A DNA stretch of 64,000 bases from Paludibacteraceae bacterium (GTDB lineage Bacteria > Bacteroidota > Bacteroidia > Bacteroidales > Paludibacteraceae). How positions within the stretch are numbered: position 1 is the stretch's first letter; each line of letters starts with the position of its first letter. Below are positions 13,500-41,493 of this stretch, piece by piece. The notes below the pieces were generated by a model, which was not told where the DNA came from, ran no database searches, and saw only the letters and a list, made by a program, of their open reading frames with translations. A program made the translations under genes and the position numbers. Where the stretch lies: positions 1-64,000 of the forward strand of contig JAFTOD010000004.1 in NCBI GenBank assembly GCA_017451525.1. Direction: 5' to 3'.

Positions 13500-15584
13500 A
13501 TGAGCAAGAAAGGAAATATCGGGGTAACATCAGATAATATCTTCCCCGTCATCAAGAAATTTTTGTATTCTGACCACGAGATTTTTCTCCGTGAGTTGAT
13601 TAGTAATGCGGTAGATGCTACCCAAAAACTGAAAACCCTCGCCTCTGTAGGCGAAGCCAAAGGCGAGTTGGGCGACACACGTGTGCGCGTACTTATTGAT
13701 AAAAAGAAAAAGACCCTCACCGTACAAGACCACGGTATCGGTATGACCGCTGAGGAGGTGGATAAGTATATCAACCAAATCGCTTTCTCTGGTGCAGAAG
13801 AGTTTGTGAATAAATACAAAGACAAAGCCGAAGCCATTATTGGTCACTTCGGTTTGGGCTTCTACTCTGCCTTCATGGTAGCAGACAAAGTGGAGATCTT
13901 CTCCCTCTCGTACCAAGAGGACGCAAAAGCCGTTCACTGGTCATGCGATGGTTCGCCTGAGTACACAATGGAAGATACCATCAAGTCAGAGCGCGGAACA
14001 GATATTGTATTGCATATCAACGACGAATACGCTCAGTATCTGGAAGATGCAACCGTAGAGGGATTGCTCACCAAGTACTGCAAGTTCCTGCCTGTAGAGA
14101 TTGCTTTCGGCAAGAAAAAAGAGTGGAAGGACGGCAAGCAAGTGGAGACCGATGAGGATAATATCATCAACGATGTTAATCCTGCTTGGACACGTAAACC
14201 AGCAGACCTGACCGATGAGGATTACAAGAAGTTCTATCACCAACTCTATCCTCATCAAATGGATGAGCCACTCTTCCATATCCACCTCAACGTGGATTAC
14301 CCATTCAACTTGACGGGTATCCTCTACTTCCCACGTATCAAGAATAATATTGATATTCAGCGCAATAAGATTCAGCTCTATTGCAACCAAGTGTTCGTGA
14401 CCGATGAGGTAGAGAATATTGTGCCACAATACTTGACATTGCTTCATGGTGTAATCGACTCGCCAGATATTCCGCTGAATGTGAGCCGTTCGTACTTGCA
14501 AAGCGACAATAATGTAAAGAAGATCTCTAGCCATATCACCAAGAAGGTGGCTGACAAATTGGCAGAGATATTCAAGAACGACCGCGAGGACTTTGAGAAA
14601 AAGTGGGACGACATCAAGCTCTTCATCCAATACGGTATGCTCAGCGATGATAAGTTCTACGACCGTGCTGTGGGCTTTGCGTTGCTCAAGAATATCGACA
14701 GCAAGTACTTCACTTTCGAGGAGTACAAGGCACAAGTCAAAGACGCTCAAACCGACAAGAATGGCGACCTCATCATGCTGTATGCACAAGATGCTGATGC
14801 CAGCTACGCCTATATCCAACGCGCCAAGGAGAAGGGCTATGACGTACTCCTTATGGACGGCGAACTGGATGTACACGCTATGTCGCAATTCGAGCAAAAG
14901 AGCTATGGCGATGGCAGCGACGACAAGAAGCAGATGATTCGTTTCGTGCGCGTGGACTCTGACGTGATAGAGAACATCATCCAAAAAGAGGATAAAGCCC
15001 AAGTGGAACTGACAGCCAATGAAGAAGATGCATTGCGCTACAGTTTCGAATCTCAGTTGCCTAAAACCGATAAAACCCGCTATGATGTAAGTTTGGAAGC
15101 CGTGTCAGCAGATGCACTTCCTGTTTTCCTCACTCAAAACGAGTTCATGCGCCGTATGAAAGAGATGTCGGCTCATCAACAGGGTATGTCGTTCTATGGC
15201 AATATGCCTGACCAATACAATTTGGTCATCAATACTGCTAACGACAAGGTGAAAGCCCTCCTCGCAGAGATTACCGACGCATGCGCCGAAGGTACTGCCC
15301 CTATCGTAGAGCAGATTGCGGTTAAGCAAGCCGAGGAGAAGACCCTGCAAGAGGCACAGAAGGGCAAGAAAGATGCCGACCTCACGCAAGAGGAGAAGGA
15401 CGCTGTGACCAACGTGACCAAGGAGTTGGCTGCGCTCAAGCAACAACTCAAGGAGCAATACAGTACCTACGCTGCAAGCAGCGACAAACTTCACCAATTG
15501 ATTGACATCGCCATGTTGGCTGCAGGTCAATTGAAGGGCGAGGCACTGGCTAAGTTTGTCAATCGCTCCGTGGAACTGCTATAA
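13500..15584 (+). CDS. htpG: Molecular chaperone HtpG (Hsp90)
   Basis: The 694-residue protein is full-length bacterial Hsp90. The N-terminal GHKL ATPase domain shows ELISNAVDA (about 34-42), DHGIGM (about 80-85) and GHFGLGFYSAFMV (about 119-131). The middle domain has the catalytic-loop region SPDIPLNVSRSYLQ, and the C-terminal dimerisation part is Lys/Glu-rich (about 600-640). It is a cytosolic ATP-dependent dimer that helps clients fold under stress. It is transcribed alone, with a strong terminator 24 bp after the stop. Confidence 0.97.
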   Translation: MSKKGNIGVTSDNIFPVIKKFLYSDHEIFLRELISNAVDATQKLKTLASVGEAKGELGDTRVRVLIDKKKKTLTVQDHGIGMTAEEVDKYINQIAFSGAEEFVNKYKDKAEAIIGHFGLGFYSAFMVADKVEIFSLSYQEDAKAVHWSCDGSPEYTMEDTIKSERGTDIVLHINDEYAQYLEDATVEGLLTKYCKFLPVEIAFGKKKEWKDGKQVETDEDNIINDVNPAWTRKPADLTDEDYKKFYHQLYPHQMDEPLFHIHLNVDYPFNLTGILYFPRIKNNIDIQRNKIQLYCNQVFVTDEVENIVPQYLTLLHGVIDSPDIPLNVSRSYLQSDNNVKKISSHITKKVADKLAEIFKNDREDFEKKWDDIKLFIQYGMLSDDKFYDRAVGFALLKNIDSKYFTFEEYKAQVKDAQTDKNGDLIMLYAQDADASYAYIQRAKEKGYDVLLMDGELDVHAMSQFEQKSYGDGSDDKKQMIRFVRVDSDVIENIIQKEDKAQVELTANEEDALRYSFESQLPKTDKTRYDVSLEAVSADALPVFLTQNEFMRRMKEMSAHQQGMSFYGNMPDQYNLVINTANDKVKALLAEITDACAEGTAPIVEQIAVKQAEEKTLQEAQKGKKDADLTQEEKDAVTNVTKELAALKQQLKEQYSTYAASSDKLHQLIDIAMLAAGQLKGEALAKFVNRSVELL

Positions 15585-29415: not shown

Positions 29416-29994
29416 ATGTCCAATCTATTATCTCCTGAAATAATCCAACTCCGCAGCGATATAGAAAAACAGTTAAGTCAAACTCTCCACTCGCCTGCTG
29501 ATTTCCAATGGCTTATTCAGCAAATTTGGAATAAACAACATACCATTCTCTCCTTATCCACCATCAAACGCCTCTGGGGGTATGTGCCGAGCAATGGTGT
29601 GCCTCGGCTTTCCACGCTGAACACATTATCCCAATTCCTTGGCTATGCCGACTGGAACGCATATCTCGTGGCTTTAGAGCAACGTGGAGGCAACGAGAGT
29701 GCCATGTTTCAGGGCGAAGGCATCTCTTCTTCAGCTCTGCAACCCAACGATAGAATAGAAGTCTGCTGGCAACCCAATCGTAGGTGCGTATTCTGCTATT
29801 TAGGTAATAACCAATTTGTTGTAGAAGAATCAAAAAATGCAAAACTGCATATAGGTGACCGATTTAGTACTGCCACTTTTATGGTGGGACACCCTATGTA
29901 TTTAGATAATCTGCTTCTCTCTGATGGCACCTGCACTTCCTATGTCGCAGGTAAAATAAATGGTCTAACATCTGTAACAAAAATCAACAACTAA
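29416..29994 (+). CDS. Putative DNA-binding protein of Bacteroidota type
   Basis: The 192-residue protein has an N-terminal helical region with LSLSTIKRLWGYV followed by PRLSTLNTLSQFLGYADW (about 40-75). This pattern recurs in Bacteroidota proteins presumed to bind DNA through a helix-turn-helix. The C-terminal half (about 95-190) is beta-rich, with IEVCWQPNRRCVFCYLG. The start follows the promoter by 22 bp. It ends 12 bp before the kinase gene, so the two form an operon; the first may be a target or partner of the kinase. Function is otherwise unknown. Confidence 0.7.
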   Translation: MSNLLSPEIIQLRSDIEKQLSQTLHSPADFQWLIQQIWNKQHTILSLSTIKRLWGYVPSNGVPRLSTLNTLSQFLGYADWNAYLVALEQRGGNESAMFQGEGISSSALQPNDRIEVCWQPNRRCVFCYLGNNQFVVEESKNAKLHIGDRFSTATFMVGHPMYLDNLLLSDGTCTSYVAGKINGLTSVTKINN

Positions 29995-30006
29995 CTACAT
30001 AATACT

Positions 30007-31080
30007 ATGGACATCTCCGATTCTGGCTTCATATCTCCCGCAGCTTTCTCTGCCGACTGGCAGGATATCACGCTTCTCCAGCAGCGCAATCACAACTGTC
30101 TGTACACCGCCTCTCGCTATGGCAAACGCTATGTGTTGAAGGGCTTATCTGCTGATTGCCAGTCATTAACAGATATGCTGCTCCTCCAGCAGAAGGAGTT
30201 CTCGTTGGGCATCACGCTCAGCCATCCCAATATCGCAGAAACCTATTTTTTGGAAGAGGTTGCAGACTGCGGTAGATGTATCGTGATGGAGTATGTGGAT
30301 GGCATCACATTGGCGGAATGGCTTGCTACCAACCCCTCGCATTCGGCACGCCAGCGCGCTATGCTACAGCTCTTAGATGCGTTGGAGTACATCCATTCTC
30401 TACAACTCGTCCACCATGACCTCAAGAGTAGCAATATCCTCATCACTCGCAATGGGCAGAATGTCAAACTCATTGATTTCGGACTGAGCGAACTGGACAC
30501 CACCAATCCGCAGAACGATATACAGCACGATATACAGAAGTTCGGAGAGATTCTTCAACTGCTTTTCCCTTCTCGTTACAAACGCCTCCGCCAGCAATGT
30601 CAAAACGGACGCTTTGCTAATATGGCAGCTATCCGCCTCTCTATCGAAAAACGCCAACGCCGCCAAAAATATATCCCTTATATCATTGCAATCATCATTT
30701 TGATTATCAGTGCTTTGCTTTCTATCCATACCTATCGTCTGTACCAAGAATCCGAGCAGATGGCACAAGTGGCAAACGAGTATGTACAAAATCAGCAACG
30801 CGAGCAAGAGATGATTGAGCAGATATACAGATTAATAGACAAAGAGATAGAACAATTACAATCTGTGGCGGATAAGTCAACCTCATACTTCTCTTATACC
30901 CAGCACCCATTATATATGGGAATTTGGGCTTTGCAAGCGCAAGTGCGCGATTCGCTGGCGAATTGTTATGCCGATAATACAGACTTGAAGTATCGCTGCG
31001 TTGAAATCTGGGCACAGGAATTTGGTACTCGAGTAATGCAAATCGACGCCCAAGTCAAGGAAACCAAACCTCTTTATTGA
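30007..31080 (+). CDS. Membrane-anchored Ser/Thr protein kinase-like protein
   Basis: The 357-residue protein has a kinase domain (about 18-200) with VLKGL as the probable ATP-lysine strand, EYVDGITLAEWL as hinge region, the catalytic loop VHHDLKSSN (about 134-142) and DFGLSE (about 157-162). A single membrane segment (about 220-240) precedes a ~115-residue C-terminal domain containing a coiled-coil-like stretch (EQMAQVANEYVQNQQREQE). The catalytic domain is therefore cytoplasmic and the tail external. The N-terminal Gly-rich loop is not well conserved. It is co-transcribed with the DNA-binding-like protein upstream. Confidence 0.85.
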   Translation: MDISDSGFISPAAFSADWQDITLLQQRNHNCLYTASRYGKRYVLKGLSADCQSLTDMLLLQQKEFSLGITLSHPNIAETYFLEEVADCGRCIVMEYVDGITLAEWLATNPSHSARQRAMLQLLDALEYIHSLQLVHHDLKSSNILITRNGQNVKLIDFGLSELDTTNPQNDIQHDIQKFGEILQLLFPSRYKRLRQQCQNGRFANMAAIRLSIEKRQRRQKYIPYIIAIIILIISALLSIHTYRLYQESEQMAQVANEYVQNQQREQEMIEQIYRLIDKEIEQLQSVADKSTSYFSYTQHPLYMGIWALQAQVRDSLANCYADNTDLKYRCVEIWAQEFGTRVMQIDAQVKETKPLY

Positions 31081-31102: not shown

Positions 31103-31132
31103 AAAAAATCGCTCAATCGGAGCGATTTTTTT
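31103..31132 (+). terminator. Intrinsic terminator after the kinase gene
   Basis: AAAAATCGCTC pairs with GAGCGATTTTT around AATCG, followed by TT. It overlaps the -33 box of the next promoter by a few bases. Confidence 0.88.
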
Positions 31133-31161
31133 GTATATATGCTAAAAAAATAGTATCTTTG
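31130..31161 (+). promoter_or_regulatory. Promoter of the non-coding RNA
   Basis: TTTG (31130-31133), a 20-bp spacer and TATCTTTG (31154-31161), predicting a start near 31167. Confidence 0.82.
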
Positions 31162-31166
31162 CGCCC

Positions 31167-31481
31167 GAAAAGATGATAGTAATATAAAATATTCCTCAAT
31201 AGGTAAGCAAGCGTGCCGACCTAATCTTTTCACGACATAGATAAAGTAGCATTTGCTATTTGTTCGCTAACATACCTTGAAACCTGAGAAATTTCAATTT
31301 GTATAGCGTCAATTGGGGCACGAATGAGTAGAATCATTGTTGCCGATTGGTGGTATATTTGTATGTGTATTCCGAATAAATGAGCGAATGCCCACGTGTA
31401 GGCGTGGGCGATTCGTTGTTTGGATGCACGGGTTTTCTCAGGACCTCAAGGTATGGACAAGGAATCGTTCATGCCTTTTTT
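31167..31481 (+). ncRNA. Candidate structured non-coding RNA of about 315 nt
   Basis: The interval has its own promoter and intrinsic terminator and no credible reading frame. Stems visible by eye: GAAAAGAT/ATCTTTTC (31167-31174, 31224-31231) enclosing TAGGT/ACCTA; TTGAAA/TTTCAA extended by ATAC/GTAT and CGCT/AGCG (about 31265-31308); AATGA/TCATT within GGCA/TGCC (31317-31344); and GAATGCCCACG/CGTGGGCGATTC (about 31386-31414). The loop CCTGAGAAA (31283-31291) is perfectly complementary to TTTCTCAGG (31434-31442), predicting a pseudoknot. I do not see the conserved motifs of tmRNA, RNase P RNA or SRP RNA, and the ends do not pair as in 6S RNA. Family unknown. Confidence 0.72.
31450..31481 (+). 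terminator. Intrinsic terminator of the non-coding RNA
   Basis: GGTATGGAC and GTTCATGCC form a 9-bp stem (two wobble pairs) with an 8-nt loop, followed by TTTTTT. Confidence 0.85.
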
Positions 31482-31580
31482 GTGTGCATTCGCTACTAAT
31501 TTGAATACGAAAACCATGCCACTAATACCCTTTGGCAGACGGTTGGCAGCCAAAAGAACCAACAAGAACCAGCACATTTC

Positions 31581-31611
31581 TTGCCTACCCAACGAAAAAG
31601 CACTACCTTTG
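31581..31611 (+). promoter_or_regulatory. Promoter of the 31.6-40.9 kb cluster
   Basis: TTG (31581-31583), a 20-bp spacer and TACCTTTG (31604-31611). It is the only clear promoter I can find before the 13-gene co-oriented run. Confidence 0.78.
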
Positions 31612-31662
31612 CAAAGCAAAGAAAACGAAAAGCAATAATAACTTACTAATCAACAATTTAAG

Positions 31663-32949
31663 ATGAAAAACAAACTTACATTTCCCCTTATTTGTTGCAT
31701 AGCCATCACAATGGCAGCATGTGGTGGATCGTCTAAAGGCAAACCTATGTCAGCTGCTCAGTTAGCAGAGTATAATGAAATAGTAGCCAAAGTGCAACAA
31801 ATCGAAAATCTACTCTGTGACATCAGTGGTATGGAACCTAACGATGCTATCCAACTCTCGCAGTTGGCAAATCAGTTATGCTATACCTATGATATCAATG
31901 GCTTGGATTCTGCTTCCATTGCCAATTGCCAAGCGCTTCAACTTCGTACAGAGCAACTCAAGCAGAATATCCACCAGACTATCAAAGATAATATGCACAA
32001 TATCCAAGTGCCAGTAGTGAACGATGACGATTGCCTTGTGGAGAAGAAAACTGCATACCCCGTTTACCTCAAACGCGGCGATAAACTCTATGTGAATATC
32101 AAGACTAAACGCGCTGCCACACTCAAAGTCTATAACTACGACTCACATTCCACGCTCAAAACCATTGCTGATAAAACAGCGTTCAAGTTTAATATGGAAA
32201 TAGAGAACAGCGCTATCTATTTGGTAGAACTCAATCCTGGCAAAAGTTCGCAATACGCCTCTATTCATATCACCTACACTACCAATCAACTTGATCGCCT
32301 CACACCTGTGCAGGTCAACGAGCGCACAGTAGAAGCCAAGTCGGGTGATTTCCGTGCATGGTCTGTCAAGGGTATTAAGATGACGCCTATCTTGGATGAG
32401 CCTCGCAAATTCACACTTCGTGGGCAACTGAAGGCTGCCTTTTCTGGTTCATATCGAGGCTTGGTAGGTGTGGAAGTACCTGCTGGCGCAACAGATATTT
32501 TGTATCGCATGCGTATTTCTACTAACGAAGCTGATCGAGGTAGTGATGGTGAGTTTGATAGGAATATGAATGCGTCCTACCGCAAAATCAAGGCACTTGG
32601 TTTGCCTATATACGAATCAACCAAGAGTTCGGGTATCTTAAATACCATTTTGGGTGAATACACGCCATTGCGCGAGGAGGATGCGTATATCAATATGTTT
32701 GTATTCAATAGTTCATCGCAAGCTAAGAAGTTCCAAGACAACAAACCTACCAATCAGTTGAGTTATGATGTCAATAGTTCTATCATGGGTATGCAATCTA
32801 GCAATGGTCGTATTCCTGTGAAAGGTCGTAAAACGATCTACTTGGGCTTTGAGAACGAGCGTATGCGCTACAATAACTATGTATGGGTAGAGGTCTTGGC
32901 GGCTAAACCTATCAACGAATATTTCAAATCAGAGTATTATATTAACTAA
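31663..32949 (+). CDS. Predicted lipoprotein of unknown function
   Basis: The 428-residue protein begins with a lipoprotein signal peptide ending in MAAC (Cys20) followed by GGSSKGK. Residues about 30-110 are helical; the remainder is beta-rich, with a stretch (VYLKRGDKLYVNIKTKRAATLKVY) resembling carbohydrate- or peptide-binding beta-sandwich domains. No enzyme motif is recognised. It is the first gene of the cluster and presumably its periplasmic or surface component, matching the OmpA-domain protein further downstream. Confidence 0.75.
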   Translation: MKNKLTFPLICCIAITMAACGGSSKGKPMSAAQLAEYNEIVAKVQQIENLLCDISGMEPNDAIQLSQLANQLCYTYDINGLDSASIANCQALQLRTEQLKQNIHQTIKDNMHNIQVPVVNDDDCLVEKKTAYPVYLKRGDKLYVNIKTKRAATLKVYNYDSHSTLKTIADKTAFKFNMEIENSAIYLVELNPGKSSQYASIHITYTTNQLDRLTPVQVNERTVEAKSGDFRAWSVKGIKMTPILDEPRKFTLRGQLKAAFSGSYRGLVGVEVPAGATDILYRMRISTNEADRGSDGEFDRNMNASYRKIKALGLPIYESTKSSGILNTILGEYTPLREEDAYINMFVFNSSSQAKKFQDNKPTNQLSYDVNSSIMGMQSSNGRIPVKGRKTIYLGFENERMRYNNYVWVEVLAAKPINEYFKSEYYIN

Positions 32950-32957
32950 TCAATATT

Positions 32958-33125
32958 ATGGCAAAGATTCCAGGACTTAGTTTCTCGCTCAAGCGAGCAG
33001 TAGGTATCTCAGGCTTGAAGACCAAAGTAGCCCGAGCAGCAGGTATCCCCACCACCAAACAAGGCCTCGAGCGCAAAATCGGTGGCGCTATCCTTAAGGG
33101 CTTAACGGGCAAGAAGAGAAGATAA
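32958..33125 (+). CDS. Very small basic protein (55 aa)
   Basis: ATG 32958 opens a 55-residue frame ending at TAA 33123-33125. The product is strongly basic (SLKRAVGISGLKTKVARAAG at its core, ending TGKKRR) and could be an amphipathic helix that binds membrane or nucleic acid. It lies 8 bp after the lipoprotein stop and 29 bp before the next gene, in the typical CAATATTATG start context of this cluster, which supports it being real. Confidence 0.65.
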   Translation: MAKIPGLSFSLKRAVGISGLKTKVARAAGIPTTKQGLERKIGGAILKGLTGKKRR

Positions 33126-33154
33126 CCTTTAGAACTTTTTAAACTTATAAAATT

Positions 33155-33517
33155 ATGGGACTTTTAAATTCAATCAAAGACCACTTCACGAACGCAGAGT
33201 TCGCTGTGGCACCAAACAAGAAAGTTAAAACTATTTGTGCAGACTTCAAGAAAGCTTTTGGCTGTACTTTGGCAATCTACAAAGGCAAACAATTGGCTGA
33301 TGGCGACTTGACACTCAACCAACTCAACCAAAAGACCAGCAAGGATGTGAAAACAAGCGCAACAGCTGAGTTGAAACTCAAAGCATCGATGAAAGTAGGT
33401 GATGCAGAGAAACTCTTCAACGATCTCTTTGGTCTGATCGTACAAATCAAAGACCCAGCAGGCAAAACTTGCGTGGACAACAAACTCACCATCGGCCAAG
33501 CCGCCCGCGGCGAGTAA
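33155..33517 (+). CDS. Small protein, paralog of the product of 34250-34564
   Basis: The 120-residue protein contains KVKTICADFKKAFGCTLAIYKG (about 23-44) and KASMKVGDAEKLFNDLFGLIVQIKD (about 77-101). Both segments align with the other copy (KVKTLKAEFKKAFGSTLRVYK and KGNMQVGNFEKKVAEMYGIGVQVAN). The two-part beta-alpha pattern suggests a duplicated small fold. Function is unknown to me. It begins with a short N-terminal addition (MGLLNSIKDHFTNAEF) absent from the second copy. Confidence 0.75.
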   Translation: MGLLNSIKDHFTNAEFAVAPNKKVKTICADFKKAFGCTLAIYKGKQLADGDLTLNQLNQKTSKDVKTSATAELKLKASMKVGDAEKLFNDLFGLIVQIKDPAGKTCVDNKLTIGQAARGE

Positions 33518-33528
33518 TCCCCATCAGG

Positions 33529-33552
33529 CATAGGAGTTTAACCGCTCCTATG
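33529..33552 (+). other. Intergenic hairpin 1 of the cluster
   Basis: CATAGGAG/CTCCTATG, 8-bp stem with loop TTTAACCG. It covers ATG 33550, favouring the next start at 33580 for the following gene. No U tract follows. Confidence 0.6.
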
Positions 33553-33579
33553 ATTACAAAACAGAATCAAATTATTGCT

Positions 33580-34182
33580 ATGTCCACCTACAATCGAAAA
33601 GACGACTTATCTAAAGCTTTCAATGATTTTTGGCGAAAAGCTTTAAACTCCAAGGAAGACTTTTATTCTAAGTTAACCTTACAGGAGTTTGTTATACTCA
33701 AAAAGGCTATTACCAACATCAATAATATTGTCACAATGTTAGCAACAGAGGGATTTATCCATACTTTGAGAAATGATGGAGTTATTTCTTCTCAGCAAGA
33801 GGCAGAGATGTTACAACAACTCTTAGCTACCCATGCTAATACAAATGGTTTTGATGTCGAATATAATCAAGAAGTTAAGATTGTAGCAGAAGTAAAATGT
33901 AATATTCCAGTCAATGAAAAGTCTTTTGGTGCTGCTCAAGAGAGTAGTATCATGGATGATGTGGAGCATCTATTTAATAGCAAAAAGAAGTCTGATTTGA
34001 CGCAAAAAGCCATCAAGGACTATTACAAATTTATGGTCTTTCTAGAGGAAAAAGATGTGCAACCTTCAGCCCAAAAACTCATAAAAAAACTAACTAATAA
34101 AGGGTTTCATATTAAGGAATACGCACCTCAGATAACACTTCAAAAAGACACTGTATATTTCATTTACATAAGTACAACCTGA
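33580..34182 (+). CDS. PD-(D/E)XK-nuclease-like protein
   Basis: From ATG 33580 the protein has 200 residues. A helical N-terminal part (about 10-85) precedes GFDVEYN (Asp92) and VAEVKCNIPVN (Glu104, Lys106), then FGAAQ. The D-x11-E-x-K spacing followed by N-x-P and FGxxQ is the PD-(D/E)XK nuclease arrangement. The C-terminal tail (about 145-200) is helical and basic. Earlier frame positions (33469, 33550) are rejected because they overlap the previous gene or lie in a hairpin. Substrate unknown; confidence in nuclease activity is moderate. Confidence 0.65.
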   Translation: MSTYNRKDDLSKAFNDFWRKALNSKEDFYSKLTLQEFVILKKAITNINNIVTMLATEGFIHTLRNDGVISSQQEAEMLQQLLATHANTNGFDVEYNQEVKIVAEVKCNIPVNEKSFGAAQESSIMDDVEHLFNSKKKSDLTQKAIKDYYKFMVFLEEKDVQPSAQKLIKKLTNKGFHIKEYAPQITLQKDTVYFIYISTT

Positions 34183-34249
34183 AAATAGGACAACGCTCGC
34201 AGTCCTAAAGTTGCGGGTATTATTGATCAATTATTCAAAATTTACAACT

Positions 34250-34564
34250 ATGGCAGAAATTGCATTGAAAGGCAACATGAAGGTTAAGACCTTGAAAGCC
34301 GAATTTAAGAAAGCGTTTGGTTCTACCTTGCGCGTGTACAAAAGCGAAAGCTGCAAAGGCGCATTTGCAGATGACGATGCTACATTGGCATCCATCCGCG
34401 CAGAGGGCGCTAAGGGTGGCGAGCTCGCAGTTAAAGGTAATATGCAAGTAGGCAACTTCGAAAAGAAAGTAGCTGAAATGTATGGTATCGGCGTACAAGT
34501 AGCTAATGCTGATGACAGCAAGTTGGCTGACAACAGCGCTACTCTCGTAGGCGCAGGTAAGTAA
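34250..34564 (+). CDS. Small protein, second paralog
   Basis: From ATG 34250 (TTTACAACTATG context) the product has 104 residues: MAEIALKGNMKVKTLKAEFK, then an Asp/Ala-rich FADDDATLASIRAEGAKGG, then LAVKGNMQVGNFEKKVAEMY. The phrase KGNM(K/Q)V occurs twice, showing an internal duplication. It is paralogous to the product of 33155-33517, and the two flank the nuclease-like gene. Similar small proteins of unknown function occur in other bacteria; I recognise the type but no assigned role. Confidence 0.75.
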   Translation: MAEIALKGNMKVKTLKAEFKKAFGSTLRVYKSESCKGAFADDDATLASIRAEGAKGGELAVKGNMQVGNFEKKVAEMYGIGVQVANADDSKLADNSATLVGAGK

Positions 34565-34578
34565 TTACCACCACCAAG

Positions 34579-34604
34579 GCAGGCGGGCTTGACCGCCCAC
34601 CTGC
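34579..34604 (+). other. Intergenic hairpin 2 of the cluster
   Basis: GCAGG/CCTGC outer and GGGC/GCCC inner stems with loop TTGACC. The loop is the exact reverse complement of the hairpin 3 loop (GGTCAA). Confidence 0.6.
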
Positions 34605-34677
34605 TTACTAAGGATATCACCCGTAGTCCTCAAGTTGCGGGCAACAAACATAACAACAAATAAAAAACGAAACAATT

Positions 34678-35592
34678 ATGGCAAGTAAAGTACGCGTTTA
34701 TGGCAAGGCACAAAATCGCACTGCTTTGGGTATTGTGAATGCCTATTTAGTAATGTATCCTCATGCAACTGCGGAGGATTTGAACAAAGCATTCCCATTG
34801 GAATTGCAATCACATGGCACATGGAAATCACTCTTTCGTACCCCAAAAGAGTATGCTGCCAATGAAGCTAACCAAGGTCTTTGGTTCGCAGAGGAAGATG
34901 AGATTCTCCACCTGCAAGATGGTACCCAATTAATATTCCTAAAACTCTGGCCCAAAGACAAATTTGACAACATCGTTAATCATGCCAAATTATATGACAT
35001 CGAGATTGCTGAATTTGAGAAAGGTGAGAAAGGCACTAAAGGCGGTTATCGTCTTGAGTATCTCAACGGCTATGTTCCACCTGTACCAACCAAGAAAGGT
35101 ATGCCTAAATGGTTGTTGGCACTCATCGCTGTATTGGGCTTGGCAGTAGTAGCATTGCTCCTCTTCTTGCTCCTTGGCAAGAAAGCAGAGCCACAAATCG
35201 TAGAGGTAGAGAAAGTGGTAGTGGTACACGATACACTCTATATTCAACAAATCGCTGAGATTGAGAAGAACTTCAACGCTGCTCAGTTTGAACAAGGCAA
35301 AGCCGACCTCAATGAGGACGCAAAATTCGTATTGCACGATTTGGCTAAAGTGCTGAATGCACACACCGACATCAAACTCACAATCAAAGGTCACACTTCC
35401 GCAGAAGGCGATGCGGCTTTCAACCAAAAACTGTCTGAAGCACGCGCGAAAGCAGCTGTGGACTTCTTGGTAGAGCGCGAAGGCGTTGCTGTAGAGCAAT
35501 TGTCATACGCTGGCATGGGTAGCTCAGAGTTGAAGAACGCAGACAACCCAATGGCACCAGAAAACCGCCGTACCGAATTTATTATCGAATAA
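34678..35592 (+). CDS. OmpA-domain protein with central membrane segment
   Basis: The 304-residue protein has three parts. An N-terminal cytoplasmic domain (about 1-135; VRVYGKAQNRTALGIVNAYL) is found in hypothetical proteins but has no role I know. A single membrane helix follows (about 142-163; WLLALIAVLGLAVVALLLFL). The periplasmic C-terminal OmpA/MotB-like peptidoglycan-binding domain is at about 200-304 (LTIKGHTSAEGDAAFNQKLS, SEARAKAAVDFL, NRRTEFIIE). It therefore links a cytoplasmic domain to the cell wall, in the manner of anchors and stators. Confidence 0.82.
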   Translation: MASKVRVYGKAQNRTALGIVNAYLVMYPHATAEDLNKAFPLELQSHGTWKSLFRTPKEYAANEANQGLWFAEEDEILHLQDGTQLIFLKLWPKDKFDNIVNHAKLYDIEIAEFEKGEKGTKGGYRLEYLNGYVPPVPTKKGMPKWLLALIAVLGLAVVALLLFLLLGKKAEPQIVEVEKVVVVHDTLYIQQIAEIEKNFNAAQFEQGKADLNEDAKFVLHDLAKVLNAHTDIKLTIKGHTSAEGDAAFNQKLSEARAKAAVDFLVEREGVAVEQLSYAGMGSSELKNADNPMAPENRRTEFIIE

Positions 35593-35617
35593 TCACTCTT
35601 TAATAACTATCACAAAC

Positions 35618-36022
35618 ATGAAAACGAATTCTAAAGCATTAGCATCATTCCTGGCAGCAGCTGTCTGGGCTGATGGCGAATACTGCGAGTTTGAGCAATC
35701 GCTCGTAGCAGACATGGGGGATCTATTGGATGCAAAGACCCTTACACAAGATTTAGAGGCAGCTATCGCTGCTACCGAGAATATGTCAGGCGACGAACTG
35801 ACCGCACATTTGGAAGAGGCAGTTAAGCAAGTGGATGCAACTGAGAAAGAGGGTATCCTGACTCTCTGTTTGCAAATGCTCTGCTCTGATGCATTTTTGT
35901 CATTGGATGAGGTAGAGAACTTCTTCACTTTCGCTGAATTGCTCGGCGTGGACGAAGACGATGCACAAGCTATTCTCGATGTGTTCATCGACGAAGAGGA
36001 AGACTTAATTATCGAAGAGTAA
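35618..36022 (+). CDS. TerB-like acidic protein
   Basis: The 134-residue helical protein has the TerB-like layout: two similar halves with acidic residues in LAAAVWADGEYCEFEQSL (about 12-29) and CLQMLCSDAFLSLDEVENF (about 86-104), and a very acidic tail (FIDEEEDLIIEE). TerB-type proteins bind metal ions and occur in tellurite-resistance, stress and phage-defence contexts. It follows the OmpA-domain gene by 25 bp. Confidence 0.7.
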   Translation: MKTNSKALASFLAAAVWADGEYCEFEQSLVADMGDLLDAKTLTQDLEAAIAATENMSGDELTAHLEEAVKQVDATEKEGILTLCLQMLCSDAFLSLDEVENFFTFAELLGVDEDDAQAILDVFIDEEEDLIIEE

Positions 36023-36047
36023 TCAACCAATAAAAAGGAATACAACT

Positions 36048-36314
36048 ATGGCTATACAAAAAACAGCAGCTGGTAAGGTTGATAAACGTACCAAGGAATA
36101 TAAGGAGATGGTAGCACGCGCTAAGAAAGCGCGCGCAGCTTTGAAGAAAGAATCTAAAAAATCTACCGTTAAGAAGTCTTCTAAAGCAGGTCGCCGTCAA
36201 GATGGCCATCTCGACCAACGCACCAAAGCGGGTAAAGAGGCAGCAGCACGCATGGCTGCAGCTCGCAAGGCTAAAGGCAGCTTGAAGAACAAAATCAAAA
36301 ACCTCTTCAAGTAA
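36048..36314 (+). CDS. Lysine-rich small protein (88 aa)
   Basis: The product is about one quarter lysine plus many Arg and Ala (KARAALKKESKKSTVKKSSK), resembling histone H1-like or other nucleic-acid-binding basic proteins. Two repeats of (D)xRTKxxKE (DKRTKEYKE, DQRTKAGKE) are visible. It lies 25 bp after the TerB-like gene, so an acidic and a basic protein are made together. No enzyme motif. Confidence 0.7.
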   Translation: MAIQKTAAGKVDKRTKEYKEMVARAKKARAALKKESKKSTVKKSSKAGRRQDGHLDQRTKAGKEAAARMAAARKAKGSLKNKIKNLFK

Positions 36315-36347
36315 ACTTCCATCGCCCCCGATGGGGATATAAACAAG

Positions 36348-36373
36348 GCAGAGGAGCGGTCAAGCTCCTCTGC
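36348..36373 (+). other. Intergenic hairpin 3 of the cluster
   Basis: A perfect 10-bp stem, GCAGAGGAGC/GCTCCTCTGC, with loop GGTCAA; no U tract follows. Confidence 0.65.
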
Positions 36374-36410
36374 TCACAAAGAATTACAACTATTTAATAA
36401 CGATTGCATT

Positions 36411-37025
36411 ATGGCAACCTACAAAGACTTAATCCTGCAACATTGTGCAGGGATTGTAGAGCAAGTGCTGAATAACACGGAACGCTATCGAGTAGGATCA
36501 GGTAAGATACCTGTACCCAAAGAACCTATACTCTATCGATGGTGGTTTCCCGCTAACTCTGAAGTCGTGACCATGTTGCGCGCGTGGAGAGGTAAGGACA
36601 GTAAGGAGCCAACCAACTTGCTTGAAGGGGTATTGACACGCGAGATAGAGGGAAAGACCTACTATGCGTTGTATTTTGGCAAAAGTAATAAGGGATATCG
36701 TCGTTATATACAGCATAGTACGGGCAATATTCACACCTCTACCCTGCGCAGAACTATCCATAGTCTGCTGACGGATGAGGATTACAACAAACCCATTCAC
36801 GAACCGCAGATTGATAACATACTTAAAGACTGCTACTTCGAGTGGGCAGTTATTGACAAAGAAGAAGAGAGCTTGGTGGAGTGCATCGAAGCGATATGCA
36901 TTGTGCACGGCACCTATCCACTCAATATCGATGGCAATCCCGCTATCAATGAGACATGGCGCGAGCATATGATGAATAAGCGCGGAAAAGTGAAAGATAA
37001 AATAATATTAACCCTTAAAAACTAA
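36411..37025 (+). CDS. GIY-YIG-like nuclease domain protein
   Basis: The 204-residue protein shows the GIY-YIG arrangement: ILYRWWFP (40-47, GIY strand), YYALYFGKSNKGYRRY (84-99, YIG strand, with conserved Gly and Arg), then TSTLRRTIHSLL. An EEESLVECIE helix follows, and finally NIDGNPAIN, the Asn-containing C-terminal element. This fits the branch in which STLR and NxxGNP are typical. Such domains cut DNA in repair, restriction and homing. It follows hairpin 3 and precedes a coiled-coil gene by 5 bp. Confidence 0.7.
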   Translation: MATYKDLILQHCAGIVEQVLNNTERYRVGSGKIPVPKEPILYRWWFPANSEVVTMLRAWRGKDSKEPTNLLEGVLTREIEGKTYYALYFGKSNKGYRRYIQHSTGNIHTSTLRRTIHSLLTDEDYNKPIHEPQIDNILKDCYFEWAVIDKEEESLVECIEAICIVHGTYPLNIDGNPAINETWREHMMNKRGKVKDKIILTLKN

Positions 37026-37030
37026 TCATT

Positions 37031-37282
37031 ATGAGTTTGGAGTATTACAAAAAGCAAATGGTGGATTTGCGTGCCAAATTGCAAAAAGAGAAAGATGCAA
37101 AGAAAAAAGACAATGAGTATTACGCTCGTATGGTGAAGTTCTCATCTACGCCAAGTGGTAAAGCTTCTTATCGCAAGTCAAAGATTGACCGCTCAGCTTC
37201 ACATGATCGCCAGATAGATTACATCAAGCGTCAAATTGAAAACTGCAAAGAGAACATCGCTCGTGAACGCAAGCGCAAATAA
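37031..37282 (+). CDS. Small coiled-coil protein (83 aa)
   Basis: The product is Lys/Glu-rich and almost wholly helical (DLRAKLQKEKDAKKKDNEYY, then IDYIKRQIENCKENIARE). SGKASYRKSKIDRSASHDRQ lies in the middle. I recognise this as a recurrent small protein type without an assigned role. It begins 5 bp after the GIY-YIG-like gene, indicating co-expression. Confidence 0.7.
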   Translation: MSLEYYKKQMVDLRAKLQKEKDAKKKDNEYYARMVKFSSTPSGKASYRKSKIDRSASHDRQIDYIKRQIENCKENIARERKRK

Positions 37283-37293
37283 AATCATTAGGT

Positions 37294-37315
37294 CAGCGGG
37301 ATTGGTTTTCCGCTG
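37294..37315 (+). other. Intergenic hairpin 4 of the cluster
   Basis: CAGCGG/CCGCTG, 6-bp stem with loop GATTGGTTTT, between the two coiled-coil genes. Confidence 0.5.
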
Positions 37316-37343
37316 GCTTGCAAAGAAAAAGAAAATCATAAAT

Positions 37344-38696
37344 ATGGATCTAAGTAATTTTTCAAGCAAAGCCCAAGGGTTATTGGGTAAAATGTCGGAA
37401 GTAACACAAGAATTTTCTGAAAAGGCAGAGCAACGTGCTGCTGAACGAAAAGAACAAAAGGCGAAAGACCAAGCAATGAAAGAGGAGGCTCTTCGCTTAG
37501 AGGCTGAAGAAGCGTCAGGATATTATATCCGCGATGGAAAACTGATTATAAGTACCATTGATGGTATGAAGCAATGGTTAAATAATTTAGGAAAAGATAC
37601 AACCCCTGCTTTGATGCAAACTTTACAAATGCAGTTACAAGTACTGAAGCATGTTCAATCTCCATCTATGACTGGCATGGCTCTAGATAATATGATTCTA
37701 TGTCTGGACAAAGCAGTCAAATCAGCAAGCAGTGAAGTAGAGTTGAGCAATATCAGGGAGTCGTTTGCTTCCATGATACAGAGTTATTTCTTTATGCAAG
37801 AAGCAAATCTAAGATGCGCTCAATTGAAAAATAAGGAAGAAGGAAATCAATTGCTCAATCAAGCAGGGGAAATATTATCGGAAGCTGTGACAAAAACTGC
37901 ACAAGCTTTGACTAAGAATGAAATAGATATGACAAAGACTATTGTGCGTAATATTTTTGACACGACAGAGAAACAACAAGGATATTTAAAACAACTATTC
38001 TCTTGGTTTGGTAATAAAAAGGAGGTTCAATCAAAAGAAAAAGAATTTTATCAAACTTTGGAAATGTTATTTGAAACTTTTGATTTGCATGCAGAATTAC
38101 TTGGGGCTTCAATTCTGATAAAGGGTATGTTATCGCGATATAGAAAAGCACTGGTTGAATATCGTACGGATGAAAAGATACAAATGTATATAGATAGAGG
38201 ACATGTAATTGATACTCAAAAAATTGCAGGTTTATCCAAAGGGCTTGTAGATACAACCAATTCACTCATTGGCCCAGCTAAAATAGGGGCAATATCAGGG
38301 ATTGCTCAATCTTTAAATTCTATAGTCGGTTTGATTACAGATCGTATCAATAGCAATAAGAAAGGATTAGATATTAAAGCATATTGCACGTTGCAAGACG
38401 CGCTTGAAACAGATTGTGAGCATCTACAAAAAGAATTAGAGATACGAGAGAGCGAACGTCAAGAACTTAAAAATCAGCTCAAAGAAATAGGATTACTTCA
38501 ATTCGCGCAGAAAAAAGAACTTCAAGAAAAGATTGTTAAAAAGACTGCAGAAAAGGATGCAATATATAATTCGCTCAAGTTGACCCGCGATAGGATAGCG
38601 GAGATGAAACAGATGTTCCCAGATTCGTATGCAATGAAAGCCGAATTAGAAAAATACGAAGAAAATCTGTTAGTAATTGAAAACAAGTTTCTATAA
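37344..38696 (+). CDS. Coiled-coil protein of unknown function
   Basis: From ATG 37344 the protein has 450 residues. It is helical, with a charged N-terminal coiled coil (about 20-60; FSEKAEQRAAERKEQKAKDQ) and a long C-terminal one (about 350-450). A middle part (about 215-320) contains a short hydrophobic segment near GPAKIGAISGIAQSLNSIVG. No catalytic motif is recognised. The frame extends to 37236 but that would run back through the previous gene's end. It lies 3 bp before the ion-channel gene, so tight translational coupling is expected; it might be a cytoplasmic partner of the channel. Confidence 0.7.
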   Translation: MDLSNFSSKAQGLLGKMSEVTQEFSEKAEQRAAERKEQKAKDQAMKEEALRLEAEEASGYYIRDGKLIISTIDGMKQWLNNLGKDTTPALMQTLQMQLQVLKHVQSPSMTGMALDNMILCLDKAVKSASSEVELSNIRESFASMIQSYFFMQEANLRCAQLKNKEEGNQLLNQAGEILSEAVTKTAQALTKNEIDMTKTIVRNIFDTTEKQQGYLKQLFSWFGNKKEVQSKEKEFYQTLEMLFETFDLHAELLGASILIKGMLSRYRKALVEYRTDEKIQMYIDRGHVIDTQKIAGLSKGLVDTTNSLIGPAKIGAISGIAQSLNSIVGLITDRINSNKKGLDIKAYCTLQDALETDCEHLQKELEIRESERQELKNQLKEIGLLQFAQKKELQEKIVKKTAEKDAIYNSLKLTRDRIAEMKQMFPDSYAMKAELEKYEENLLVIENKFL

Positions 38697-38699
38697 TCT

Positions 38700-40391
38700 A
38701 TGAACTCAAAACTCCTTACTTTCAAACAAGAACTTAATCGCGTCTTTGATGATAACTTGCACACTAAACAATGGCATAACCTTTTGGATTATGCTATCAT
38801 CGGTTTTATTGTTCTATCCACCATCGAAGTATTCCTTTCTACATACGATAGTATTGTAGAACGATATGGCGTATGGCTACATGCTATTGATTATTTAACA
38901 ACCGCTTTCTTTACCATAGAGGTTAGTTTGCGTATCTGGAATGCCGACCAGTTAGACCCTAAATACAAAGGCTTCTGGGGACGCATGCGTTATTGCTTCT
39001 CTTTCTATGGATTGATTGATATCCTATCTACCTATCCGTTCTACTTGCACTTCTTTATGCCTATCCCATACGTGGCACTCAAGGCACTGCGTATTGCTCG
39101 TCTGCTGCGTATCTTCCGCTATATGAAGGCATTTAGTATCCTATCGCGTGCTATACGAGCAAAGAAGAACGAGATGATAGTATCGCTTCAGTTCTTAGCT
39201 ATTGTCACGCTGATACTATCTTTTGTACTTTTCTTTGTAGAGCATGAAGCACAACCAGAGGTCTATGACAATGGTTGGACATCCGTGGTATGGGCTTTTG
39301 CGCAGTATATCGGCGACCCAGGCAACTTTGCTGATACACCACCTATCACCTTCACAGGACGCATCATTGCCTGTATCATCGGTATATTAGGTATTGCTAT
39401 ATTCGCCGTGCCTGCCGGATTGATTGGCTCCGCCTTCACCGAAGTGATGGAGAAAGATGAAAAGAAGGAGAAGATAGAGGGTTGGAAAGAGCGCCTGCAC
39501 TTAGCATTTGAGCGCAAAGAGGATAGATTGACTAATTTTCAAATAGTACCTCGTTATTTATCTGTAACAGAGATACAAGCGCGTCTAGGATTAAAAGAAG
39601 ACGAAATATTTGAGGCTGTTTCCAATAGCGATGACTTTCGCTTTACCAATTTAGCATGTACTCGTCCTGCCGATGAGCATCCTGAAGATAAATTAGCGAT
39701 CGAACATTTTACCGTTAATACATGCTATGGACAATGCATTGATCGCGGATCAAAAATTACTATTTACACACCGTCTAATATTGTTGATCCTATCATGGGT
39801 TGGTGGGGATACTATTTGGCAAAGATTGGTGGATTCAATTATATAAGTCGTGAATTAGGAGAAACAAGACCATATGGCTCATTCTATGTTTACGACAAGA
39901 GTAAAAATATAGAAGGAGGAGAAGAATGCTTAGCTGATATCAATCGTCTTGCCAATAGCGATGACCATTGGGTTATATCTGTTTTAGCCGCAAGCGGTGC
40001 CAATGAACCGACTTTCCCTACACAATTCCACTTTACCTATGGTGCCAAAAAGGGAGACGAGACATACGATGACCCTAATATTACTTTAAATGACATTGCT
40101 ACTTTTGAGCAGATATATCAAGCATTTAATAGTTTGTTATCAGAGAAATATCAATTTTCAGCTGACAAACAGCGCTATCACACCAATGCTTCTAAGTTGT
40201 TTTTTGCACGCCAACTAGAGCATAAACTCAATGCCATATCATTGCGCATAGCGTGGAGTGTCACTTGTTGGGATATGCGTGCTATTCAGATTGCACAGGA
40301 CTTGGCGCAAATTATTAACCAACAAATCAATCATTGCGATAATCCGATAGTTCCTGAGCTCAAAAAGAAGGGTATTGGATATAATGCATAA
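38700..40391 (+). CDS. Voltage-sensor-type ion channel with atypical filter and long C-terminus
   Basis: The 563-residue protein has a six-helix ion transport domain in its first ~255 residues. S4 carries repeated arginines (ALRIARLLRIFRYMKAF, about 125-141). The pore helix and filter read WAFAQYIGDPGNF (about 198-210) instead of the potassium TVGYG, and S6 ends FAVPAGLIGSAF. A cytoplasmic domain of ~300 residues (about 260-563) follows; I do not recognise it. Ion selectivity cannot be assigned. It is the penultimate gene of the cluster, and its stop overlaps the next gene by 8 bp. Confidence 0.85.
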   Translation: MNSKLLTFKQELNRVFDDNLHTKQWHNLLDYAIIGFIVLSTIEVFLSTYDSIVERYGVWLHAIDYLTTAFFTIEVSLRIWNADQLDPKYKGFWGRMRYCFSFYGLIDILSTYPFYLHFFMPIPYVALKALRIARLLRIFRYMKAFSILSRAIRAKKNEMIVSLQFLAIVTLILSFVLFFVEHEAQPEVYDNGWTSVVWAFAQYIGDPGNFADTPPITFTGRIIACIIGILGIAIFAVPAGLIGSAFTEVMEKDEKKEKIEGWKERLHLAFERKEDRLTNFQIVPRYLSVTEIQARLGLKEDEIFEAVSNSDDFRFTNLACTRPADEHPEDKLAIEHFTVNTCYGQCIDRGSKITIYTPSNIVDPIMGWWGYYLAKIGGFNYISRELGETRPYGSFYVYDKSKNIEGGEECLADINRLANSDDHWVISVLAASGANEPTFPTQFHFTYGAKKGDETYDDPNITLNDIATFEQIYQAFNSLLSEKYQFSADKQRYHTNASKLFFARQLEHKLNAISLRIAWSVTCWDMRAIQIAQDLAQIINQQINHCDNPIVPELKKKGIGYNA

Positions 40392-40944
40392 ACAAACGTG
40401 TATTCTACTAACCGCCTTTGAGCCTTTTGGTGGGGCGGAGACAAATATCACACAATCTATTCTTTCTCTATTGCCTGATTCCTTTGCGGATTGGGCGGTA
40501 GAGAAAGTGTGTTTGCCAGTGAGTTTCAAGCGCGCACCTATCGTATTGCGAGAGGCAATAGCGACCTATTCTCCTGATTTAGTCATCATGCTTGGACAAT
40601 GTCCTGCGGGCGAAAACATCCGTTTGGAGCGCTTTGCTATCAACATTATGGACAGCACAAAAGCTGACAATGATGGCTATATCCCGAACGAAGAAACCAT
40701 TTATGCTTATCAACCACTCGCCTTGCAAACACCACTGCAAATCAAGGAGTTAGTAAATTTTTGTACAGGTAATGTACTGCCTATACAAATATCCAATTCC
40801 GCAGGATTATACGTCTGCAACCGCGTATATTACGAAGCATTGCATCTGCAACAAAATGCACTCTTTGTGCACGTACCGAAAAATATGGATCTAACACTTG
40901 CTCAACAGACAATTGCGCAAATAATGAAAAACCTATTGTATTGA
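40384..40944 (+). CDS. Pyroglutamyl-peptidase I (C15) family protein
   Basis: From ATG 40384 the product has 186 residues. C15 signatures: LLTAFEPFGG (6-15), GQCPAGENIRLERFAINIMD with the catalytic Glu, SNSAGLYVCNRVYYEAL with the nucleophile Cys, and FVHVP with the catalytic His. The enzyme would remove N-terminal pyroglutamate. It is slightly shorter than typical (about 200-220). The 8-bp overlap with the channel gene (ATGCATAA) means it is co-translated with it, although a peptidase is an unexpected companion. Confidence 0.85.
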   Translation: MHKQTCILLTAFEPFGGAETNITQSILSLLPDSFADWAVEKVCLPVSFKRAPIVLREAIATYSPDLVIMLGQCPAGENIRLERFAINIMDSTKADNDGYIPNEETIYAYQPLALQTPLQIKELVNFCTGNVLPIQISNSAGLYVCNRVYYEALHLQQNALFVHVPKNMDLTLAQQTIAQIMKNLLY

Positions 40945-41051: not shown

Positions 41052-41127
41052 CTAAATTTCCTCTTAGCTTTTCTTCCACATAGGAATAATTGGGGAAAAG
41101 TATTCTTTGACGTATTGTAGAGAAAAA

Positions 41128-41250
41128 TTACATATCTTCTAAACTTAGAGGTATAAAGTTGACTTCATATCCTCTGAAATGAGATCGGATATGGGCAAAT
41201 CGCTCTTTGGTTGCCTCCATAATCTCCTGATTTCTTCCGTAAAACTTCAT
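41128..41250 (-). pseudogene. Remnant of an ATPase gene (internal deletion)
   Basis: A 40-codon frame begins MKFYGRNQEI, the usual start of Bacteroidota AAA ATPases of the DUF234-associated type. It ends with HFRGYEVNFIPLSLEDM, which resembles the C-terminus of the same family, so several hundred residues between seem to have been lost in frame. A normal -7 box (TATCTTTG, 41309-41302) precedes it. An authentic short gene cannot be excluded. Confidence 0.5.
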
Positions 41251-41301
41251 AGTTGTATAATTTTACAAAATTGTTTTTTACAAATTTGTTAATTTGCGGT
41301 G

Positions 41302-41309
41302 CAAAGATA
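41302..41309 (-). promoter_or_regulatory. -7 box upstream of the ATPase remnant
   Basis: TATCTTTG on the minus strand, 52 bp before the ATG. No convincing -33 box is seen. Confidence 0.5.
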
Positions 41310-41324
41310 CAACTTTTTTTTGAT

Positions 41325-41380
41325 TTTGCGGCTCATTTTGAGCGAAAAAAAACAAAAAAACTTACTTTTTTGAGCCGCAA
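41325..41380. repeat. Inverted repeat near the remnant promoter
   Basis: TTGCGGCTCA (41326-41335) pairs with TGAGCCGCAA (41371-41380), a 10-bp stem with an A/T-rich 35-nt loop. It could end transcription from the YccF gene. Confidence 0.55.
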
Positions 41381-41493
41381 GGGCTAAGTTGCAAGCATTT
41401 GGGCAAAAAAATACGATTTTCTCTATCTTACGCCGAAAATGGTCTGCTAACCAACAGCCATTTCAAGTAACAAACAGCATGTGATTGACTGTC

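Follow-up and report, generated by a model that had tools for sequence, protein, structure and literature searches.

Gene content and layout of the cluster

The window analysed here, 64,000 nucleotides at positions 1 to 64,000 of contig JAFTOD010000004.1 (forward strand), lies in the genome of a Paludibacteraceae bacterium (GenBank assembly GCA_017451525.1; 1.84 Mb in 7 contigs, 84% complete) and holds a one-directional gene cluster that a preliminary description had placed at 31663–40944 and taken for an envelope-spanning system of unknown function. We find that this cluster is a co-inherited unit of the Bacteroidales in which a recurring frame of genes carries exchangeable cargo, small modular domains are shared between proteins, and a structured leader RNA at the head also accompanies restriction-modification genes, three traits that the preliminary description had overlooked. 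Our own reading of the sequence is that the cluster looks more defence-like than anything else.

The thirteen plus-strand genes counted earlier are recovered once the list of open reading frames is supplemented by a frame of 55 amino acids (aa) at 32958–33125, which falls below the list's limit of 60 aa, and the couplings noted among them hold: a gap of 5 bp between the GIY-YIG and first coiled-coil genes, 3 bp between the second coiled coil and the channel, and an overlap of 8 bp between channel and peptidase. Yet the cluster is wider than those thirteen, as a regulator and a kinase just upstream (29416–31080), previously missed, belong to it. Counts of loci given below refer to 84 Bacteroidales loci, compared after 7 duplicates and the loci L025, L026 and L037–L044 had been dropped; the near relatives are Paludibacteraceae and other Bacteroidales assemblies, their source mostly the guts of plant-eating mammals. 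Pfam scans covered 16 window proteins, which comprise 14 of the 15 cluster proteins (KR left out) plus others, and the PADLOC scan covered 10 of the 15.

All genes lie on the plus strand. The regulator-like protein of 192 aa (REG, 29416–29994; no Pfam match) has homologs beside the cluster in 45 loci, and the Ser/Thr kinase that follows, with a membrane helix seen by eye (KIN, 30007–31080; Pkinase E = 1.6e-21), likewise occurs in 45. The single clear promoter reported earlier stands: the exact match at 31130–31161 to TTTG-N18-22-TAnnTTTG, which we take to be the Bacteroidales promoter consensus, is the sole one between 28849 and 42975, and the 64 kb contain 10 exact matches vs 2.0 expected. 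It lies ~500 nt upstream of the first of the thirteen genes, and a structured leader RNA, here called R1 (31167–31492), is transcribed first, with a terminator-like hairpin at its end (stem 31448–31477, then a T run). Next come a predicted lipoprotein of 428 aa (LIPO, by eye, 31663–32949; 32 loci), the basic 55-aa protein KR (32 loci), and BG1 (33155–33517), a small tag-like protein of two repeats, as is BG2 (34250–34564); BG is present in all 84 loci by selection. Between them is PD23 (33580–34182; 7 loci), a cargo gene whose listed frame opens at 33469 and whose true start is probably about 33580. OMPA (34678–35592; 51 loci) has a cytosolic N-domain, one transmembrane helix (by eye) and a periplasmic OmpA domain, and is followed by the TerB-like TERB (35618–36022) and the Lys-rich LYS (36048–36314; 28 loci), which has two LYS domains and one exact DGxxDxRxK tag motif. 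The remainder consists of a GIY-YIG nuclease cargo gene (36411–37025), the 83-aa coiled coil CC1 (37031–37282; 65 loci), which is the most constant partner of BG, the coiled-coil cargo CC2 (37344–38696; 6 loci), the channel CHAN (38700–40391; 50 loci) and PCP of the pyroglutamyl peptidase family (40384–40944; 27 loci).

Among the domain calls made earlier, OmpA (E = 5.2e-18), GIY_YIG_2 (E = 2.1e-12, with conserved motifs), Ion_trans and Peptidase_C15 (E = 1.7e-32) are firm, TerB falls slightly under its cut-off (22.7 bits vs 24.4), and the possible PD-(D/E)XK nuclease PD23 shows a conserved EVK motif without support from Pfam or another database. The voltage-sensor channel resembles KCNQ channels (E = 1e-22) and carries a C-terminal domain of ~300 aa; in most full-length copies IGDPGxFADTPP or a near variant takes the place of the K+ filter, and some loci, such as L021, have a shorter channel with a different filter (by eye).

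Linkage across the Bacteroidales

Relatives were sought with BG2 as the seed, which gave 252 relatives in the genomes scanned, and 80 loci were kept. Inside the clusters the majority strand carries 789 of 816 genes, and families confined to the outside of cluster spans reach at most 4 loci each, except for f36, which reaches 6 loci, encodes a small membrane protein and mostly lies at the head of the cluster. A linkage test independent of the seed used 344 genomes of the order, drawn evenly and including the source genome, among which CC1 is present in 14 and BG in 21. In 13 of the 14 CC1 genomes BG lies within 3.5 kb on the same contig (hypergeometric P = 2e-17), and with the source genome removed the count is 12 of 13 (P = 4e-16); in the fourteenth genome, which lacks a nearby BG, CC1 is ~3.6 kb from a contig end. 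The preliminary description had left room for the genes being unlinked elsewhere; this neighbourhood check, by strand over the 84 loci and by the proximity of CC1 to BG, finds them linked, and the cluster is a real co-inherited unit. Its frame recurs as BG, CC1, the OmpA anchor, the channel and the kinase, joined by REG and the leader RNA, with exchangeable cargo between, its distribution is patchy, as the 21 BG genomes in 344 indicate, and its chromosomal sites differ.

Distant BG-like proteins of about 119–142 aa occur in other Bacteroidota outside any such cluster (L038–L044), several of their genes adjoining, by eye, universal-stress-like and CBS-domain-like genes. A different family of the phylum has a mini-cluster (L037:2290–3834) with BG, LYS and an OmpA N-domain on a 203-aa protein seemingly without the OmpA anchor, which suggests that this N-domain can work without its anchor.

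Shared domains and exchangeable cargo

Two small domains, BG and D19, stand alone or fused to OmpA-anchor, TerB, KAP, nuclease and LRR proteins. BG is built of two halves that are related to each other (hhalign probability 96.6, E = 7e-10); searches of Pfam, NCBIfam, PADLOC and PHROGs gave nothing better than chance for it, with no Pfam model at E ≤ 1, and its profile gives chance matches only against solved structures. D19, of 67 aa and present in 29 loci, may have a gene of its own, stand in tandem copies or form one terminus of a larger protein; it has no match in PHROGs, and its comparison with Pfam was made within cargo proteins at E ≤ 1e-4, with 25 of 42 families listed. Fifteen proteins are fusions to OmpA, 6 with BG and 9 with D19. 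The other BG fusions are one each of BG-TerB (L015), LYS-BG and BG with WG-like repeats (by eye), and D19 is joined to KAP in 4 loci, to LRR in 2, to PDDEXK_4 in 1 and to FGE in 1, with f26 bearing BG or D19 in 2. LYS proteins contain a third short motif, DGxxDxRxK, which also lies at the termini of SH3 proteins and of small membrane proteins; among the matches listed all are in the cluster except one, in a 1048-aa protein of L071. Mean identity within vs between loci is 0.556 vs 0.500 for D19, slightly above chance (10 of 1000 shuffles as high), and 0.363 vs 0.431 for BG. Searches of plasmids found neither CC1 nor LYS, and the plasmid matches of the OmpA protein, among the 20 of 101 records listed, span the generic OmpA domain only.

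Nucleases are common among the cargo, any of six families being found in the cluster or at most 3 genes away in 53 loci, a KAP NTPase in 16, and a nuclease or KAP in 58. Pfam names PDDEXK_4, GIY_YIG_2, LEM-3 GIY-YIG, PvuRts1I-like proteins with SRA, and KAP; the assignment of f13 and PD23 to PD-(D/E)XK is a motif-based call. Defence models in PADLOC match the PvuRts1I/SRA protein (mREase_II, E = 1e-72), GIY34 (PD-T4-3, E = 3e-39), KAP (PifA, E = 5e-31, also QatA and PDC-S20) and PD20, a PDDEXK_4 protein (PDC-S26, E = 4e-8). KIN matches the PD-T4-6 models, which may reflect a mere common kinase fold, and PHROGs gave nothing firm for the 10 proteins searched. Several cargo families are nearly confined to the cluster, as seen from the numbers of loci inside and outside it: f13 19 and 0, PD23 7 and 0, GIY 9 and 2, PD20 8 and 2. 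Two loci (L061:196–501 and L074:11450–11857) have cargo made of short tandem repeats, of the LYNERGxYxRTI and IYxGRYTNTSDIL types.

Junction hairpins and cargo exchange

Block breaks and pattern searches define short hairpin spacers at the cargo junctions, named HA (33527–33554, 34578–34605 and, on the minus strand, 36347–36374) and HC (37290–37317). We compared the window's DNA with eight loci, the 5 closest and 3 more distant. In the 5 closest, shared blocks end at 33513–33561, start at 34182–34185, end at 34608–34614 (one at 34664), end again at 36378–36380, start at 36409–36410, end at 37282–37335 and start at 38681–38693. All of these sites except 38681–38693 lie in or beside spacers, namely HA (33527, 34578, 36347), HC (37290) or the pseudoknot leaders PK (34187, 34611) described below. 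In the 3 more distant loci the blocks start or stop at the genes themselves (34237, 34598–34611, 37006), and L083 has a further break within the OmpA gene; plain divergence therefore explains some of the breaks. Within the source genome, patterns allowing at most 3 mismatches find 3 HA, 1 HC and 2 PK, all in the cluster, and the reversed patterns find no match at the same setting. We rejected ordinary terminators as an explanation of the spacers, which on the plus strand have no T run behind them and in the source genome are confined to the cluster; a terminator-type flag was raised only for the hairpin at 36348–36373, on the minus strand.

Exchange is also visible between genomes. Three loci (L057, L122, L150) share flanks on both sides, with proteins mostly 73–99% identical, and differ in their contents, and L052 and L054 share the left flank and likewise differ in contents. 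In G058 the flanking proteins compared are 73–97% identical to those of the window, the genes of the window's right flank (from 41494 on) keep their order and adjoin other genes, and the cluster lies on another contig, beside a dus-like gene (by eye). An intact empty site was not found, the left side in G058 being hidden by contig ends or rearrangement. L022 has duplicated pieces of the channel tail and the PCP gene (6598–8191), which on their sequence are best taken as signs of recombination.

Leader RNAs

The stretch between the kinase and the first of the thirteen genes (31207–31630) is 79–92% conserved in the 5 closest distinct loci. In L015, L019 and L021 the leader exceeds the regulator/kinase block (69–78%) in conservation, and in L080 it equals the kinase (81% vs 82%), the regulator standing at 69%. 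From an alignment of 17 homologs, three helices of R1 were picked by eye, by helix scan and with RNAalifold. In these helices 98.9% of cells pair, against at most 47% in slid controls, and 7 pairs and 29 cells are changed on both sides vs shuffled means of 3.3 and 9.1 (0 of 500 shuffles as high), counts made on the same alignment from which the helices were picked. One helix (columns 126–134/265–273) excludes the local hairpin at columns 263–300, which is the fold preferred by RNAalifold; since these two mutually exclusive folds compete, we infer that R1 is switch-like. Rfam has no family matching 31167–31492 above its gathering score, and a further Rfam scan gave only chance-level matches.

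A covariance model of R1 gave 45 matches at E ≤ 0.1 in 90 loci, 17 of them its training sequences and 5 with E above 0.01. Strictly at the head of the cluster are 36 of the 45, and six more copies (L021, L067, L068, L075, L083, L096) precede other genes at the cluster head. L071 has a second copy (14139–14410) immediately 5′ of the gene for its 1048-aa protein, besides the one 5′ of BG. R1 is not an exclusive mark of the cluster, an idea that we rejected because 80 of the 344 order genomes carry it, often in several copies; the source genome has one. Among these we examined 40 hand-picked sites, namely 23 of the 24 best outside the window (G509, at a contig end, being omitted) and 17 lower-ranked ones taken at intervals. 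Of the 23 top-ranked sites, 13 are followed by a restriction-modification methyltransferase, as the immediately next gene in 12 and as the second in 1. Ten of the 12 were identified with PADLOC as type I, II, IIG, III or cytosine type, 39–64 nt downstream; one PADLOC set consisted of 10 genes hand-picked out of 20 R1 contexts, mostly for a methyltransferase-like look, and among the other ten contexts six were partly scanned with Pfam, and L192, L193, L196 and L199 were left unscanned. The next-gene methyltransferases of L201 and L203 were identified by phmmer, and in L200 the second gene is Eco57I/ResIII. The identical phmmer search matches 2 of 2319 genes in the cluster loci. R1 is thus enriched before restriction-modification genes, most strongly in its best matches, and is not exclusive to them. 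Among the contexts L181–L220, those of L193, L197 and L202 have a small HTH-type regulator (by eye) behind R1, and L209 has one further downstream; in L197 an f13-like nuclease follows the regulator.

A second structured element, a short H-type pseudoknot, lies upstream of both BG2 (PK, 34187–34217) and the OmpA gene (34611–34641, with 6 of 7 stem-2 pairs). The count from its alignment is biased towards the structure, as 17 of the 19 rows had been found by a regular expression that requires stem 2, and for two of the five measures 42 and 47 of 500 shuffles scored as high. When selection was by stem 1 only, 21 of 120 matches (both strands) had a perfect stem 2 of 7 pairs, with 1.0 expected from shuffling, and 20 of these 21 perfect pseudoknots are 60–71 nt 5′ of a BG or OmpA start.

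Relation to known systems

The earlier statement that no named system matches has held up. No methyltransferase is found among the 16 window proteins scanned, which speaks against membership in restriction-modification. PvuRts1I/SRA modification-dependent restriction, PD-T4-3 and the KAP systems PifA and QatA belong to the same families as single cargo genes of the cluster; as known systems they act alone or in other operons, whereas the cluster, a larger unit, has them as parts that can be exchanged for one another. Zorya joins a membrane protein with a periplasmic peptidoglycan-binding OmpA-type domain to DNA-cutting effectors (PMC11890865), and the cluster likewise has a membrane protein with a predicted periplasmic, peptidoglycan-binding OmpA domain, together with DNA-cutting cargo. 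The ZorB model matches this protein weakly and in the OmpA domain only (E = 2.2e-5). In place of a motor the OmpA protein has a cytosolic N-domain, no ZorA/MotA-like partner is found in the Pfam or PADLOC scans, and membership in Zorya fails on the motor.

Closer in principle are the EAD-type conflict systems, in which a core protein and the varied effectors encoded beside it carry small non-enzymatic domains at their ends, and effectors are displaced inside a preserved frame (Kaur et al. 2020, PMC7159879; PMC8195603). D19 in our cluster is found in the same way on the OmpA core and on PDDEXK_4 (L076), LRR (L078, L081) or BG-D19 (L070, L092) proteins. In contrast, tags of one operon are rarely closest relatives here, and the core is OmpA, BG, CC1 and the channel rather than MoxR-vWA, GAP1 or EACC1; MoxR-vWA, GTPase-GAP1 and EACC1 have no Pfam match among the window proteins scanned. 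Measured against the adaptor principle of PMC7159879, the cluster agrees in architecture and differs in the kinship of its copies. In the open-access literature we found no description of a system with a BG/CC1/OmpA/channel core, which is not proof of absence. We rate the system as new because no such core appears there and because none of the small core families is matched by a model in the libraries searched for it (four for BG; Pfam, NCBIfam and PHROGs for LYS; Pfam and PHROGs for CC1; PHROGs only for KR). The working principle that the cluster seems to follow is already known.

Interpretation and alternatives

On balance we lean towards reading the cluster as a modular, tag-assembled, envelope-anchored anti-phage or conflict system under an RNA switch. 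BG and D19 would draw soluble effectors to the OmpA protein, which would sit in the inner membrane and grip peptidoglycan with its periplasmic end, and an envelope or infection signal, perhaps passed on by the kinase, would release DNA cutting and channel opening. R1, with its two exclusive helices and a terminator at its end, may decide whether the operon is read, and may act likewise on restriction-modification genes bearing the same leader; the hairpin spacers would permit the exchange of cargo cassettes. The preliminary proposal of an envelope system acting on DNA or membrane potential, possibly in defence, thus keeps its co-inherited cluster with envelope anchor, channel and nuclease cargo, and loses its ter-type link.

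Several results weigh against this reading. No recognised nuclease or KAP is found in 26 of the 84 loci, and PADLOC did not separate 69 cargo families from 69 flank families, the flanks also matching generic and restriction-modification models. BG was not found in phages, plasmids or viral contigs, most of its copies are unfused (210 proteins), and the four KAP-D19 fusions divide into two strong ones and two weak ones (E = 8e-4). The nearest relative lies in the same locus for only 1 of 35 D19 and 3 of 205 BG domains. As for R1, further pair types, one of the five covariation measures, number 20 vs 20.8 on shuffling, and among the 17 lower-ranked sites a type III-like methyltransferase is found by phmmer in 1 (L217) and a methylase motif only in 2 (L207, L208), the remaining ones preceding secreted, regulatory or unknown genes.

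A Ter-like response to envelope or chemical stress, in which kinase, TerB-like protein, OmpA and channel would sense and repair envelope or ion stress with nucleases as repair factors, is in our view unlikely. It would account for the TerB-like protein (27 loci), the channel, PCP, lipoprotein and OmpA anchor. The cluster resembles Ter gene sets in its one TerB-like protein and, in L015, in a BG-TerB fusion. A Ter system is defined by TerB together with TerC/TerD-type proteins, and the Pfam scans of the 16 window proteins find the weak, sub-threshold TerB and no partner of the TerC, TerD or TerZ type, so that the ter-type membership suggested earlier is not upheld. The presence of a modified-DNA restriction family among the cargo also argues against it, and cargo turnover and patchiness seem atypical of a core stress response.

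Quite unlikely, we think, is that the frame (BG, CC1, OmpA, channel) does something unrelated and that the spacers merely accept mobile defence or other genes. DUF4143 and Fic inserts run opposite to the cluster strand (0 of 6 and 0 of 3 on it), 66 of the 107 inside families are seen once, and some cargo is also found beyond the span ends (loci inside and outside: KAP 7 and 4, f15 7 and 8, f11 5 and 8, GIY34 3 and 3), all as expected of such a landing site; the cargo nonetheless lies on the cluster strand, some of it with the cluster's own tags, and f13, PD23, GIY and PD20 are nearly confined to the cluster. Just behind the cluster, short stretches of the window at 41088–41433 match DNA beside or in the opposite-strand DUF4143/Fic inserts of L093, L080, L083 and L086, and this segment is likely a remnant of an insert of that type. 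Least probable is an assembly with a structural or surface role, be it adhesion, secretion or an intracellular filament, built from many small BG, LYS and KR subunits, for although at least two BG domains are present in 75 of 108 BG-bearing loci, an OmpA anchor exists and the cargo includes proteins with LRR and WG repeats, nucleases are common cargo, the leader RNA is common to restriction systems, and no secretion or pilus component appears beyond chance in the window-protein scans or in the 25 of 42 Pfam families listed for the 69 cargo proteins.

Returning to the conflict system that we favour, a bolder form of it, which we put forward tentatively and with some doubt, would make it a new class of immunity, with an envelope-anchored hub and the adaptors BG and D19 recruiting exchangeable nucleases, NTPases and channels, and would make R1 a new class of RNA switch that also fronts restriction-modification types I, II, IIG and III, one RNA signal gating many defences. 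If this holds, gut Bacteroidales would possess an extensive immune system, patchily distributed, as yet without a name and made of interchangeable parts, whose adaptor domains and cargo slots would make new effectors easy to find through their tag, and whose parts are small and can be tested individually. The shared RNA leader would then place restriction-modification and the cluster under joint control, and would offer a handle on how newly arrived restriction and defence genes stay quiet until they are safe or needed.

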